Assembly: GCA_026692865.1 (NCBI GenBank)
Contig: JAPLNI010000051.1
Location: forward strand, 62,001 to 126,000
Direction: 5' to 3'
DNA length: 64,000 nucleotides
Origin: Planctomycetota bacterium
Lineage (GTDB): Bacteria; Planctomycetota; Planctomycetia; Pirellulales; Pirellulaceae
Under the pieces are notes generated by a model. It was not told the origin of the DNA, ran no database searches, and saw only the letters and a program-made list of their open reading frames with translations. Each line of letters opens with the position of its first letter. Position 1 is the first letter of the stretch. The translations under genes were made by a program, and so were the position numbers. Shown piece after piece: positions 14,618 through 58,810 of the stretch.

Positions 14618-14763
14618 TAGTCGTATGGTAAGCAGAAAAGCAAGTGTTATGCACGTAGCAGATGTCGTAAGACATCTGCCCATGGTAGCGAAGGTTGGTT
14701 TTTCGGTGGCTTTCGAATTTTTACGAACTCGGCTACCAGTAGATTCAAGTACGACTAAGCACT
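14618..14763 (+). repeat. MITE-like element, copy A
   Basis: The core at 14655-14736 runs from GTAGC to GCTAC, with the palindrome AGATGTCGTAAGACATCT and a second, imperfect one near GAATTTTTACGAACTC. The left end starts TAGT at 14618. The right end TTCAAGTACGACTAAGCACT closes at 14763 and resembles the other copies. It fills the spacer between the PH-like gene and the small WYL-like ORF. Confidence 0.75.
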
Positions 14764-23453: not shown

Positions 23454-23591
23454 ACACCCAACTTCATAATCTAGTAGTAGAAGTCCTGAGAATTCTGCAC
23501 TCACCGCAACGCCCAGTCGTCACCATCCACTGAATTACTCTGATGAATTCCGCAACCAACAAAGCTCAAGAAGTGATCGAACTAGATTGCA

Positions 23592-32282: not shown

Positions 32283-33032
32283 ATGAAATTGAAATTGATT
32301 GTTGCTTACGCGTTCCTATGTGCATCATCCGCATATGCCGTAGACCTGCCGCCCGTCCCCAAAGATCCAATCGCGATGAAGCAAGACTTGCTTTTTGCAG
32401 ATGACTTCGAGGGCAAGGTTCCGGATAAAGTGTGGCATCGCGTTGTCCCAACATTTTCTGTTGAGAACGGCACACTCAAAGGGGTACAGACTCGTGATGT
32501 AACAATCCCTGCCAAAGACGGCAAACCAGAGGTGAAGGCTCACGCTGCCGTTCATGGGCTTGATGTTCCAACTTCCAATAGCATTGTCGAGGCGAAGATT
32601 CGTTTCGAAGGGGCATCGATGATTGATATCGAGTTTGATGATCGGGCCTATAAAGGAGCTCACTACGGCCACCTTTGCAGGGCTCAATTCCGATTGAATG
32701 GAGTTACTATCATCGACGAATGCGAAGGCAATATGCGAAATGATATTCGTGAGATGCGGAACGACCCGACTAAAAAAGCCGAGGTCGCCAAGCTTCTTAT
32801 TGGGCGGCAAGTTACCTATCCACTTAAATTACAGGCCAACCAGTGGTACAACGTCGTTGTTGAAACCGTCGGTGATTCGATGCGAGTTACCGTAGATGGT
32901 AAACCAGTCGCTTATCTCAAGTCGCCGGGCATAGCTCATTCGCCAAAATCGAAAATTGAGCTGGGGGTTGCGGGTAAGGACGGGTACTTAGATGACATCA
33001 AAGTTTGGTCTGCTGAACCAACTCAGCCCTAG
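32283..33032 (+). CDS. Exported beta-sandwich protein, 3-keto-disaccharide-hydrolase/LamG-like
   Basis: A 249-residue secreted protein (signal MKLKLIVAYAFLCASSAYAV). The mature part looks like one concanavalin-type beta-sandwich of the DUF1080 or LamG kind: LLFADDFEGKVPDKVWHRVV, then SIVEAKIRFEGASMIDIEF, and the end VTVDGKPVAYLKSPGI plus YLDDIKVWSAEP. Such proteins are abundant in planctomycetes and usually bind or process sugars. The stop codon TAG (33030-33032) is also the first three bases of a MITE-like element, which suggests that insertion occurred in the stop codon. Confidence 0.75.
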   Translation: MKLKLIVAYAFLCASSAYAVDLPPVPKDPIAMKQDLLFADDFEGKVPDKVWHRVVPTFSVENGTLKGVQTRDVTIPAKDGKPEVKAHAAVHGLDVPTSNSIVEAKIRFEGASMIDIEFDDRAYKGAHYGHLCRAQFRLNGVTIIDECEGNMRNDIREMRNDPTKKAEVAKLLIGRQVTYPLKLQANQWYNVVVETVGDSMRVTVDGKPVAYLKSPGIAHSPKSKIELGVAGKDGYLDDIKVWSAEPTQP

Positions 33033-33264
33033 CACTTCGCAAGTTTGTTAAATGGCGTCTAAACCCGTGACAGATGTCTTAAGGCATCTGAAGAAGGCGG
33101 CCTATTCTGTTTTTTCGACTGCGTTCTGAATTCTTACGAATTTTGCTACTTCATAATCTCAATAGCAGATGTCGTATGACATCTGAACACCGCAATAATG
33201 CTTGTCGTTTCCACGGACTACTGAACTCTTACGAATCCAGCTAGCGTCTCAGGCTGCTAAACAC
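33030..33264 (+). repeat. MITE-like element, tandem copies B and C
   Basis: Core B is 33067-33149 and core C is 33162-33244, both 83 bp. They carry the AGATGTC...GACATCT-type palindrome and a TCTTACGAAT palindrome. One left end (TAGCACTTCGCAAGTTTG at 33030) precedes B, and a worn right end (CTAAACACT near 33263) follows C. Only 12 bp separate the cores, so this looks like a head-to-tail dimer inside one pair of ends. It occupies the whole 244-bp space between a secreted-protein gene and the rpoD stop. Confidence 0.75.
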
Positions 33265-39508: not shown

Positions 39509-40444
39509 ATGTCGCAACCAATTGACAATTTGAATATTTCCCGTCGAGGTTTTGCAGCGAAAGCAACCGCTACGGCAGGGGTTGCAGCCGCTCTTAGCGC
39601 CTCTCTTTTAGGATCCGGGAATGCTCGAAGCGATGAGGCCGGCACCGCAATCGCGGGTGCTTCGTTAGACGCGAAAGTCGATGCGAAAAAGGGGAAGCTG
39701 AAGCAGGCTTTCTGTCGTTGGTGCTTCAAAAACTTCTCGTTAGAAGATCTATCCATTAAAGCTGCTTCTTTAGGATTAGTAGGAATCGATCTGCTCGACC
39801 CCAAGGATTTCCCGGTAATCAAGAAACATGGCCTCGTATGCACCATGGTCAACTCGGCTCCGTTGGCTGATGGGATGTGTGATACGAAGTTTCATGACAT
39901 GTGCATCGAAAAGATATCAGCAGCCATCGAAGCGACCTCTGCCGAGGGCTGGCGCAATGTGATTTGCTTCTCGGGAAATGCTCGCGGGATTGATCGTGAA
40001 ACCGGGATGAATAACTGCGTCGCTGCCTTGAAGAAGCTGACACCGCTGGCTGAGAAGAAAAAAGTTATCCTGAACATGGAGCTGCTCAATAGCCGCGTGA
40101 ATCATGCAGACTATATGTGCGACAACACGACATGGGGCATTGAGCTCGTGAAGCGTGTTGGATCTGACAATTTCAAGCTTCTGTACGACATCTACCATAT
40201 GCAAATTATGGAGGGTGATATCATCCGAAGCATCCAAAACAATCATCAATGTTTTGGGCACTATCACACCGCAGGAAACCCAGGCCGACATGAACTAGAT
40301 GGCAACCAAGAATTGAACTACGTGCCGATTGCGAAGGCCGTTTCAGAGGTCCCATTTGATGGTTACTTCGTTCACGAGTTTATCCCTGCGCGAGATCCTA
40401 TGACCGGTTTGGAAGAAGCAGTTAAGCTTTGTATGGTTTACTAG
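39509..40444 (+). CDS. Tat-exported hydroxypyruvate-isomerase-like TIM barrel
   Basis: A 311-residue xylose-isomerase-like TIM barrel of the hydroxypyruvate isomerase/sugar phosphate isomerase type. The leader has a twin-arginine signal (SRRGFAAKATATAG then ALSASLLGSG), so it is probably exported folded. The barrel shows FCRWCFKNFSLEDLS, VGIDLLDPKDFPVIKKHGL, VILNMELLNSR, LLYDIYHMQIMEGDI and the closing FIPARDPMTGLEEAV. The metal ligands are expected in MELLN, YDIYHMQ and HEFIP. The stop TAG at 40442-40444 doubles as the first bases of a MITE-like element. Confidence 0.85.
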   Translation: MSQPIDNLNISRRGFAAKATATAGVAAALSASLLGSGNARSDEAGTAIAGASLDAKVDAKKGKLKQAFCRWCFKNFSLEDLSIKAASLGLVGIDLLDPKDFPVIKKHGLVCTMVNSAPLADGMCDTKFHDMCIEKISAAIEATSAEGWRNVICFSGNARGIDRETGMNNCVAALKKLTPLAEKKKVILNMELLNSRVNHADYMCDNTTWGIELVKRVGSDNFKLLYDIYHMQIMEGDIIRSIQNNHQCFGHYHTAGNPGRHELDGNQELNYVPIAKAVSEVPFDGYFVHEFIPARDPMTGLEEAVKLCMVY

Positions 40445-40592
40445 TGCTGTGTCCAGTTTGAAAATGAGGGTTGGACGCTTGTAGCAGATGTCGCAAGACA
40501 TCTGAAGGCCGAAGATTTGGTAACTGTTTCTGCCGACTTCGGAATTCTTACGAATTCCGCTACCGCTATAATTCATTTGTACTCGACCACTA
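40442..40592 (+). repeat. MITE-like element, copy D (best preserved)
   Basis: The left end TAGTGCTGTGTCCAGTTTGA starts at 40442. The core at 40481-40563 (83 bp) runs from GTAGC to GCTAC and holds the palindromes AGATGTCGCAAGACATCT and GAATTCTTACGAATTC. The right end closes with GACCACTAGG. Both ends start or finish with TA, as for Tc1/mariner/IS630 insertions. It lies between the isomerase-like gene, whose stop codon it forms, and ispF. Confidence 0.82.
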
Positions 40593-40698
40593 GGTTTTGT
40601 TTCCAAACACGCAGTCGCGTGGCTTCAGTCATGAGCAGATTAAAGTATTTGTAGTAATGCGTTTGCGAAACTCTTTCCTTCAACGATTGATTTGACGA

Positions 40699-47680: not shown

Positions 47681-47733
47681 CTTCGGATCTTTTTCTGGAC
47701 GACATGTCGCTACGAGGATCAGGATTTTCATCC

Positions 47734-48368
47734 TAGTGTTTTGTCCAGATTAAAAACTGGGGTTCCCTTGGTTGGGCCCAAGAGACGATACTGCATTCCT
47801 TGCAAGGAGGAATGCAATGAACAAGGAACGCATTGTAACGCTGACGGATCAGCAACGAGAGACTCTAGCAAAGATAGTCAAGACTGAGACGGTTCGCCCG
47901 CCAAAGTGCGCCGTTCGCAGGTGCTGTTAAAAGCTGATCATGTCAGTGGCGGTTGGACAGGCCAGCAGATTACCGAGGCATATTCTTGTCGCGTTCAAAC
48001 GGTCGAGAACATTCGAAAGCGGTTTTGTGTTGAGGGATTTGACGCTACCGTTTCCAAGAAACGCGAGCATGTTCCACTCGGTCCGAAGTTGGATGGTGAG
48101 CAAGAAGCGAAGGTCATTGCATTGCGTTTGGGAGAAGCACCTGAGGGCTATTCGAATTGGACCTTGCGTCTGCTTCAGACAAAGGTTGTGGAGTTATCGA
48201 TTGTCGATTCTGTGTCTCGTCACTTGGAGATCTAAAGAATGCAACGCACGCTTGGCAGGCCGCAACCAACGATCGAAAGCGTGGCGTTGATTGGCAGTTC
48301 AAGATCGACGATGCTAGAGTAAAACTAACGTCGCTCTACCCAAAAAAGCTAATCTGTACAAAGCACTG
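47734..48368 (+). mobile_element. Decayed IS630-type insertion sequence, about 635 bp
   Basis: The left end TAGTGTTTTGTCCAGATTA at 47734 matches the reverse complement of the right end TAATCTGTACAAAGCACT at 48350-48367, with few mismatches. Inside lie the N-terminal and C-terminal parts of one transposase, with the middle missing. The ends resemble those of the MITE-like elements elsewhere in the window. A canonical element of this family should be about 1.1 kb, so nearly half has been deleted. Confidence 0.75.
47817..48349 (+). pseudogene. IS630-family transposase remnant (frameshifted, catalytic core deleted)
   Basis: ATG 47817 follows a perfect AAGGAGG site that is folded into the hairpin GCATTCC...GGAATGC. 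The first frame (MNKERIVTLTDQQRETLAKI) stops after 37 codons. The next frame continues VRRSQVLLKADHVSGGWTGQ with the helix-turn-helix ITEAYSCRVQTVENIRKRF and a second one, EAPEGYSNWTLRLLQTKVVE. After a stop, another frame gives NDRKRGVDWQFKIDDARVKL, the usual C-terminal end of these transposases. The DDE catalytic residues fall in the missing middle, so the gene cannot be active. Confidence 0.8.
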
Positions 48369-48409
48369 GGTTTTTTCTTCGTGCCTAGCAGCGGGATTTA
48401 ACAAAAGTC

Positions 48410-52644: not shown

Positions 52645-52793
52645 TTTTGCTTCGGCCAGATTTGAAACCTTGACTTACCCTTGTACCAGATGTCGTAAGA
52701 CATCTGCCGACATCAGCTTTAGCCGCTATTTCGATCGACATCTGAATTCTTAGGAATTCAGCTATCCCAGTTTTTGAGTTGGACAAAGCATCA
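52645..52793 (+). repeat. MITE-like element, copy E
   Basis: The left end TTTTGCTTCGGCCAGATTTG at 52645, the core 52683-52765 (83 bp, palindrome AGATGTCGTAAGACATCT and GAATTCTTAGGAATTC), and the right end CCCAGTTTTTGAGTTGGACA followed by AAGCATCA, closing at 52793. Both ends align with copies A, D and F. It takes up about a quarter of the 527-bp spacer between an acidic hypothetical gene and the DksA-like gene; nothing else was seen there. Confidence 0.8.
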
Positions 52794-52922
52794 AGAGCGA
52801 AATGCGACTTTAAAACTGCGATTGTGACGATTATCACATTGCCATTAGCCCACGGGCAATCTCAGCAATTGCTTTGAAACTGCTTGCGGAGAGAGCCGAA
52901 TAAAGGAGAATCAGCCTCGGGT

Positions 52923-58670: not shown

Positions 58671-58810
58671 TATTGCTTATTCGAACTTGTATTCGGGGAA
58701 GCTGAATTCGTTAGAATTCAGAAGTCGATGCAAACACCGAAAATCGCCATAATGTTCGGATGTCTTACGCTATACACTACAAGTAAAGCCTTTTCTTTTC
58801 CGCTGGGCTA
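58671..58810 (-). repeat. MITE-like element, copy F (reverse orientation, diverged)
   Basis: The plus strand begins TATTGCTTATTCGAACTTGT (matching reversed right ends of copies A and E). It continues through an 83-bp core at 58698-58780 with GCTGAATTCGTTAGAATTCA and a worn copy of the first palindrome (GGATGTCTTACGCTATACAC). It closes near CTGGGCTAG. It is the most diverged copy and the only one in reverse orientation. It lies between the Rieske gene and thrS. Confidence 0.65.

Follow-up and report, generated by a model that had tools for sequence, protein, structure and literature searches.

Short repeats of about 151 bp in this planctomycete genome carry the ends of an IS630-family insertion sequence, and among the matches listed a gene stop codon lies exactly at the end of 29 of the 123 distinct elements (24%) that have a locatable end. 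We consider it probable that they are IS630-type MITEs that insert at the TA of CTAG, rebuild the stop codons they enter, and have accumulated at gene 3′ ends through survival. The copies discussed individually lie in the window, by which we mean the whole analysed stretch of 64,000 nucleotides, and its features are as follows.

14655..14737, + strand: core copy with weak outer arms.
32283..33032, + strand: gene 5′ of copy B, 249 aa; stop position matched by the congener ortholog (L222).
33030..33066, + strand: left outer MITE arm of copy B, starting with the TA of the stop; terminal inverted repeat (TIR) score 8, control frequency 0.6%.
33067..33149, + strand: 83-bp core of copy B with two hairpins (nhmmer 77.8 bits).
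33150..33161, no strand: 12-bp spacer between copies B and C.
33162..33244, + strand: 83-bp core of copy C, without recognisable outer arms.
39509..40444, + strand: gene 5′ of copy D, 311 aa, hydroxypyruvate-isomerase-like TIM barrel.
40442..40592, + strand: copy D, complete MITE of 151 bp, both copies of TA counted; left TIR 18, right TIR 13.5; core at 40481-40563, right-end CTAG at 40590-40593.
47733..48369, + strand: decayed IS630-family insertion sequence (C51:109772-110223), with ends CTAGTGTTTTGTCCAGATTAAAAACTGGGGTT... and ...CTAATCTGTACAAAGCACTGG the same as those of the MITE.
52645..52794, + strand: complete copy, not on a stop codon; core at 52683-52765.
58698..58780, − strand: core copy with recognisable right arm.

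The preliminary description of this DNA had copies B and D begin on the TAG stop of the upstream gene, and three lines of evidence agree on this. Read directly from the letters, the TAG of copy B occupies 33030-33032 (context ...CAGCCCTAGCACTTCGC) and that of copy D 40442-40444 (context ...GGTTTACTAGTGCTGTG), each within a CTAG (33029-33032 and 40441-40444, respectively); the gene caller ends genes at 33032 and 40444, exactly at the starts of B and D; and TIR mapping places the terminal TA of the element at 33030 and 40442. The protein encoded 5′ of copy B has a weak laminin-G/ConA-like domain under the Pfam cut-off, and the closest named relatives of the copy D protein, a comparison of this one gene only, come from a Planctomycetota MAG (73%) and Rubripirellula obstinata (62%). 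Copies B and C had been described as a head-to-tail pair 12 bp apart, and their arrangement and spacing are as given, but they do not form two complete MITEs: the order is arm-core-12 bp-core, because B has a left outer arm only and C has no recognisable one. The count of five loci in the window needs correction to six good cores and one weak one, the latter a heavily decayed core at 23474-23556 (12 bits). The predicted RNA fold is strong for copy D (z −3.35) and unremarkable for copy B (z −1.1). An Rfam search of the window gave no match, and no terminator-like or promoter-like signal was found between 32900 and 33400.

The element is a short MITE without a transposase gene (about 151 bp, as copy D shows in full), in which inverted repeats of about 30 bp enclose a core of 83 bp; this core is a head-to-head REP dimer made of two GTAG-tagged hairpins. 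The core pattern has 173 forward and 168 reverse matches genome-wide (control, 2 and 1), which represent about 170 places rather than 341 because the core is a near-palindrome. Its consensus, built from 135 left and 131 right halves, is GTAG-CAGATGTC-GTAA-GACATCTG ... CTGAATTC-TTAC-GAATTCAG-CTAC, and where both halves could be located (123 copies), the core measures 83 bp in 86. Both the logo and the covariation reveal a GTAG tag beside an imperfect palindrome in head-to-head pairs, as in REPINs and GTAG REP dimers; compensatory double changes were counted in 9 and 30 cells compared with shuffle maxima of 6 and 13, counts in which relatedness among copies remains. Decayed inverted arms (CTAGTGCTTTGTCCARATT...) flank the core. 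The most frequent position of the terminal T is 38 bp before it (43 of 84 ends), and that of the terminal A, found at 69 of 113 ends, is 28 bp past it; directly past CTAG on the right side, the information in the logo is near zero. An outer end with two or fewer mismatches occurs at 58 places (control, 10). We also considered that the element might consist only of the 81–83 bp core, its start having been drawn 37–39 bp too far out, and rejected this, since the outer CTAGTGCTTTGTCC repeat is present in other copies and the original boundary is right.

The same ends also enclose other contents. A 63-bp relative has no core (C55:73721), an 86-bp relative has one hairpin (C51:294975), and relatives of 131 bp (C20:10507-10637 and C25:221765) have a different GTAG hairpin pair with a GCCA loop, the shared transposon ends thus enclosing more than one kind of REP dimer. 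A recognisable outer end is absent in 44 of 167 elements. A second tandem core pair resembling B/C lies at C51:225763 and 225864, with an 18-bp gap and no recognisable outer arms. Among 44 TIR-ascertained copies, which remained of the 58 outer-end places after 14 had been removed by hand (IS copies, elements that were shortened or of another family, and coreless matches), per-base difference from the consensus is 6.5% and 7.0% in the hairpins and 19% in the opposite outer end, compared with 38% in a shuffled control. The hairpins thus vary less than the transposon ends, which suggests that they serve some role after insertion or that the core moves separately. Judging from this sequence conservation, the hairpins probably keep such a role, as an mRNA 3′-end hairpin or as a protein-binding site. 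Cores could also move without arms, given that armless cores diverge by 7.7% (32 scorable matches) and those with both arms by 7.6% (57 matches) in a comparison that left out 35 of the 173 matches with poorly alignable hairpins.

The assignment to the IS630/Tc1-mariner type, made in the preliminary description, is upheld by ends common to the MITE and to IS630 remnants. At three genomic loci the first ~32 bp are as in the MITE and are followed by an IS630-type transposase reading frame, so that the terminal inverted repeats are shared over ~32 bp with three remnants in the same genome; the decayed insertion sequence at 47733-48369 is a remnant of the likely partner of the MITE. The longest of the IS630 reading frames has 186 aa and matches NCBIfam NF033545 with E=2e-16, its 60 bits falling short of the cut-off, 100. 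The partner was deduced from remnants because no intact IS630 of the MITE's group was found in the genome, where five matches at three loci are all broken. An IS5-like origin of the CTAG boundary had been considered as well and was discarded when IS630 remnants were found instead. Insertion at TA, as first proposed, stands with respect to the duplication of TA, but CTAG, and not TA in general, is the target: the 185 mapped ends include 61 with CTAG, 17 with CTAA, and 12 with TTAG. End tetramers, the logo, and two empty sites in a congener (L207 and L224, described below) all reveal TA insertion with duplication and a preference for CTAG. IS630 itself reportedly prefers CTAG, to judge by the title of a paper by Tenzen and Ohtsubo from 1991 that PMC2170065 cites.

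We then carried out the genome-wide count of stop-codon starts that had been suggested along with the original observation. The copy set comprises the matches listed, about 100 per pattern (of 341, 142, and 174), and is biased to well-conserved copies. Outer ends were mapped at a control frequency of ~1% in 157 stretches around the listed matches; nhmmer gave 174 matches after overlap removal, of which 173 were usable, or 167 after merging split elements, and an end could be mapped in 125 elements of the unmerged and 123 of the merged set. The unmerged set underlies the counts of ends, of background sites, and of gene context, as well as the comparisons of end thresholds and of core divergence. 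Genes were called with our own codon-usage caller, not taken from an annotation, which gave 716 genes (262 ending in TAA, 220 in TAG, and 137 in TGA). The 29 of 123 elements on stop codons compare with 20 of 373 non-coding, non-element CTAG sites that are stops (5.4%) and with 344 of 6,152 TA. The excess over CTAG corresponds to an odds ratio of 6.0 (p=1.2e-8) with nine gene-entered elements left out and of 5.4 (p=6e-8) with these included. In this background, in which 300 bp at each stretch edge were left out (the near-gene-end count of 24 stop CTAG given below keeps the edges), masking covered the mapped elements but left in IS630 ends and other repeat families. The stop-codon rate stays at 19–23% of elements across end thresholds from 6 to 18. 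A converging stop lies up to 400 bp before or 130 bp inside 100 of the 185 mapped ends, and at 30 of the 185 the offset is exactly 0; any other offset between −60 and +60 is taken by at most three ends. At C50:115055-115199 there is a stop at both ends, belonging to two convergent genes, which we infer once shared one CTAG. Five genes (in the C41, C28, C55, C58, and C30 stretches) end on the inner GTAG of a core and not on the outer CTAG.

Elements crowd at gene 3′ ends. The 173 unmerged matches comprise 71 between convergent genes, 67 between tandem genes, 28 between divergent genes, 6 at stretch edges, and 1 inside a called gene, compared with 51 convergent, 157 tandem, and 154 divergent background CTAG sites. 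Counted outward from the stop in 15-bp bins, the ends number 19, 10, 7, 5, 4, and 1 and background CTAG sites 23, 18, 15, 12, 9, and 15. When the background was restricted to the surroundings of gene ends, the comparison on which the original idea of stops as landing sites hinged, an excess of stops over TA was retained within 60 bp (43% vs. 27%, p=0.003) and within 150 bp (35% vs. 15%, p=4e-6), but within 30 bp it was not significant: here the stop accounts for 30 of 59 ends (51%), compared with 385 of 948 TA (41%, p=0.13) and 24 of 64 CTAG (38%, p=0.15). Relative to CTAG, the excess is significant within 60, 100, and 150 bp (p=0.04, 0.002, and 0.0006, respectively). The elements thus crowd at 3′ ends, where stops provide TA more often than any other position; a specific pull to stops is not established. 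The data are compatible with survival at gene ends, given this supply of sites.

Proteins that end on an element are complete as a rule. Matches to full-length family models cover 510/510 positions for PurH, 176/176 for Apt, 184/184 for EF-P, 208/209 for Upp, 405/407 for FabF, 412/413 for Rho, 246/247 for MetAP, and 340/345 for McsB; 7 of the 30 stop-abutting proteins have no NCBIfam match, and some models extend past the match (e.g., 436/487 at C58:388841, where the congener stop is at the same place). Orthologs of 28 of the 30 stop-abutting genes (all except C59:146333 and C51:271745) were fetched from one congener, G001, and 25 of the 28 have an in-frame stop at the homologous position, 16 with TAG, 9 with TAA, and none with TGA; in the other three (L225-L227) the congener stop comes 4, 7, and 16 codons earlier. 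From usage, 5 to 6 TGA are expected among 25 conserved stops (p=0.002, for loci that are non-independent where an insertion is shared; the 11 loci where no element was seen give 0.06). The earlier suggestion that stop codons are safe landing sites thus holds genome-wide, for 29 of 123 elements and as a rule without truncation, and the stops look like tolerated, self-restoring sites.

In the congener, the MITE is at the stop in the same orientation in 5 of the 25 loci (L200, L209, L214, L219, and L220) and in the opposite orientation in 2 (L211, where it is split by other sequence, and L223), the latter representing independent insertions or inversion in place. In seven further loci (L202, L203, L205, L208, L212, L216, and L217) it has the same orientation and lies 38–247 bp further out, and in 11 no copy was seen in the next 420 bp or up to the end of the contig, which comes within 122 bp at L204, L218, and L221. 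Of the 18 loci without a MITE at the congener stop, 7 have TAA, and 6 of these have TAG in our genome, the change that insertion into a TAA stop would produce. Clean empty sites, with no element match within 420 bp, were seen at two of the 25 comparable loci. At L207 the empty site reads CCCTAG/GTATGC and the filled site GTAG-element-GCACTTG/GTTTGC; at L224 the empty site reads CCCTAG/CCCGCC and the filled site CCCTAG-element-CCTTAG/ATCGCC. The far copies of TA read TT and TA, respectively, and both empty alleles lack arms and core together. The locus of copy D was also considered as an empty site and was not counted as a clean one because other repeats are present there in the congener, with a core copy 89 bp beyond. 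The duplication of TA agrees with the proposal in the preliminary description that insertion rebuilds TAG.

The mechanism that we consider probable would run as follows. An IS630-family (Tc1/mariner-type) transposase would move the MITEs in trans and insert them at the TA of CTAG with duplication of TA. Because the element proper starts with G (GTGCTTTGTCC...), insertion into a TAG or TAA stop would rebuild TAG in either orientation and keep the length of the protein. Insertions into coding sequences or promoters would mostly be lost, and surviving copies would therefore accumulate at gene 3′ ends, chiefly between convergent genes, with stops providing the most frequent TA there. We infer that survival, not target choice, is the cause of the crowding. 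An alternative, which we regard as unlikely, is that stops or 3′ ends actively attract the transposase or the element, through terminating complexes or a wider motif, beyond what the availability of TA or CTAG and survival provide. The sixfold odds over background CTAG speak for it, as do the outward fall in density and the higher stop share within 60 bp, and in the congener an unrelated repeat starts on stops in 5 of 30 loci. Within 30 bp, however, the share of stops does not depart significantly from availability (p=0.13–0.15), and enrichment between convergent and depletion between divergent genes are what survival alone predicts. That the two copies in the window sit on stops by chance would be a natural reading of two cases, but it is hardly credible in view of the genome-wide excess (p about 1e-8).

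It is quite unlikely, in our estimate, that the core is an independently mobile REPIN, a GTAG REP doublet moved by a RAYT, and that the arms are a landing palindrome or a passenger. The GTAG tag and hairpin at both core ends, head-to-head, have this form; there are armless tandem cores (at B/C and at C51:225763/225864), and armless cores are no more diverged than armed ones; and REP dimers inside palindromes are published, in the portion of that account relevant here, for A. variabilis and H. neapolitanus (PMC3733652). The arms, however, are common to IS630 and end at CTAG/TA, arms and core are missing as a unit from both empty sites, and no cognate RAYT with the same REPs was found: five Y1_Tnp (PF01797) loci have no core or GTAG-tagged hairpin in ~3.2–3.3 kb around them. 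Four of these five loci were scanned with NCBIfam, of which one matched IS200/IS605 over the cut-off, two fell below it, and one had no match. Truncation of genes by insertions that supplied new stop codons is very improbable, even though a TAG is available in one of the three frames at element ends, called genes run into 9 of the 123 elements without stopping at the end, and 3 of 28 orthologs stop elsewhere. As a general explanation it was rejected on the family-model lengths and the 25 of 28 orthologs with a stop at the same place, none of them TGA; several essential proteins are complete, and stops just inside the element (+2 to +20) occur at 5 ends only, compared with 30 at offset 0.

Other repeats also begin on stops in the congener. 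An unrelated repeat that reads CTAG and then ATCGATTCTTAGG... begins on the same stop at L204 (upp), L216 (purH), and L218. This second repeat family in G001 (L235-L264; CTAG and then ATCGATTCTTAGGTTGATGTAGCT...GTAGGATAGGCTTCCAGCCTGTCGG) has 48 pattern places there (control, 0), and its 28-base pattern has no match in our genome; of the 30 loci read, 5 have it starting on a stop and 8 have no converging gene. At purH the second-family repeat separates the stop from an older copy of the MITE. Repeated insertion at one stop is proposed because 3 of the 25 loci have the second family, 7 have the MITE 38–247 bp further out, behind other sequence, and 2 have it in the opposite orientation; some of the seven displaced copies may represent insertions into the MITE arm, and L205 keeps an arm-like start. 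We tentatively raise the possibility that CTAG and CTAA stops are self-renewing docking sites, where every insertion would restore the stop and provide a new TA target at the codon, so that successive families might enter the same stop and push older copies outward, layering the 3′ regions and leaving the proteins untouched. Just 3′ of the congener stops at L202, L203, and L215 there are other GTAG-tagged hairpin pairs (e.g., GTAGCTGCGTCTCTCCGAGACGCA...), apparently further REP families. A third congener repeat (CCACTTTGAACCTGACA...CAATCTCAACTYTGCTGGAGTRCAGCCTT...) occurs 3′ of the stop and beside MITE-end-like sequence at two stop-docked sites, L205 and L222.

One close likeness is to RUP of Streptococcus pneumoniae, which its published accounts, in the parts drawn on here, present as a non-autonomous 107-bp MITE with IS630-Spn1 ends, a TA target, and 108 copies (PMC2229807), overrepresented between convergent genes (PMC3049150). 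Our element has the same properties, being non-autonomous with ends as in an IS630 of the same genome, a TA target, and enrichment between convergent genes; it differs in its REP-dimer core, which these parts do not describe for RUP, and the coincidence with stops is reported there for BOX (PMC3049150). For BOX of S. pneumoniae, the relevant part records 36 CDSs that end in a BOX encoding the stop and finds no strong sign that they are truncated (PMC3049150); BOX differs in sequence and in its modular structure, and neither a background rate nor empty sites are given in that part. GTAG-tagged REPs are described, in the portion cited, as head-to-head stem-loops that are intergenic and mostly 3′ of genes, whose termini often give TAG stops, with REP dimers inside longer palindromes in A. 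variabilis (PMC3733652). The GTAG tag, the stem-loop, the head-to-head pair, and the location mostly downstream of genes are shared with such REPINs or BIMEs, whereas here the stop is usually on the outer IS630-type end, ~27–38 bp outside GTAG, and no cognate RAYT was found. ISY100/IS630 elements duplicate TA according to the portion cited (PMC2170065) and are autonomous, unlike the relatives in our genome, of which only broken copies were found. Open-licence literature searched by title and start of the abstract yielded no further claim of stop-codon docking by such elements. The CTAG preference of IS630 and the supply of stops by repeats are already in print; what is added here is the composite element and a genome-wide, comparative test.

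The target rule and the first base of the element together permit landing in the last codon of genes such as those for EF-P, PurH, FabF, and methionyl aminopeptidase with the protein unshortened, and published statements about small repeats that "encode the stop codon" can now be given numbers. For annotation, this is a warning that TAG stops can be partly mobile-element DNA. The findings also offer a testable model, in which stops would be renewed as targets and 3′ regions would grow in layers.
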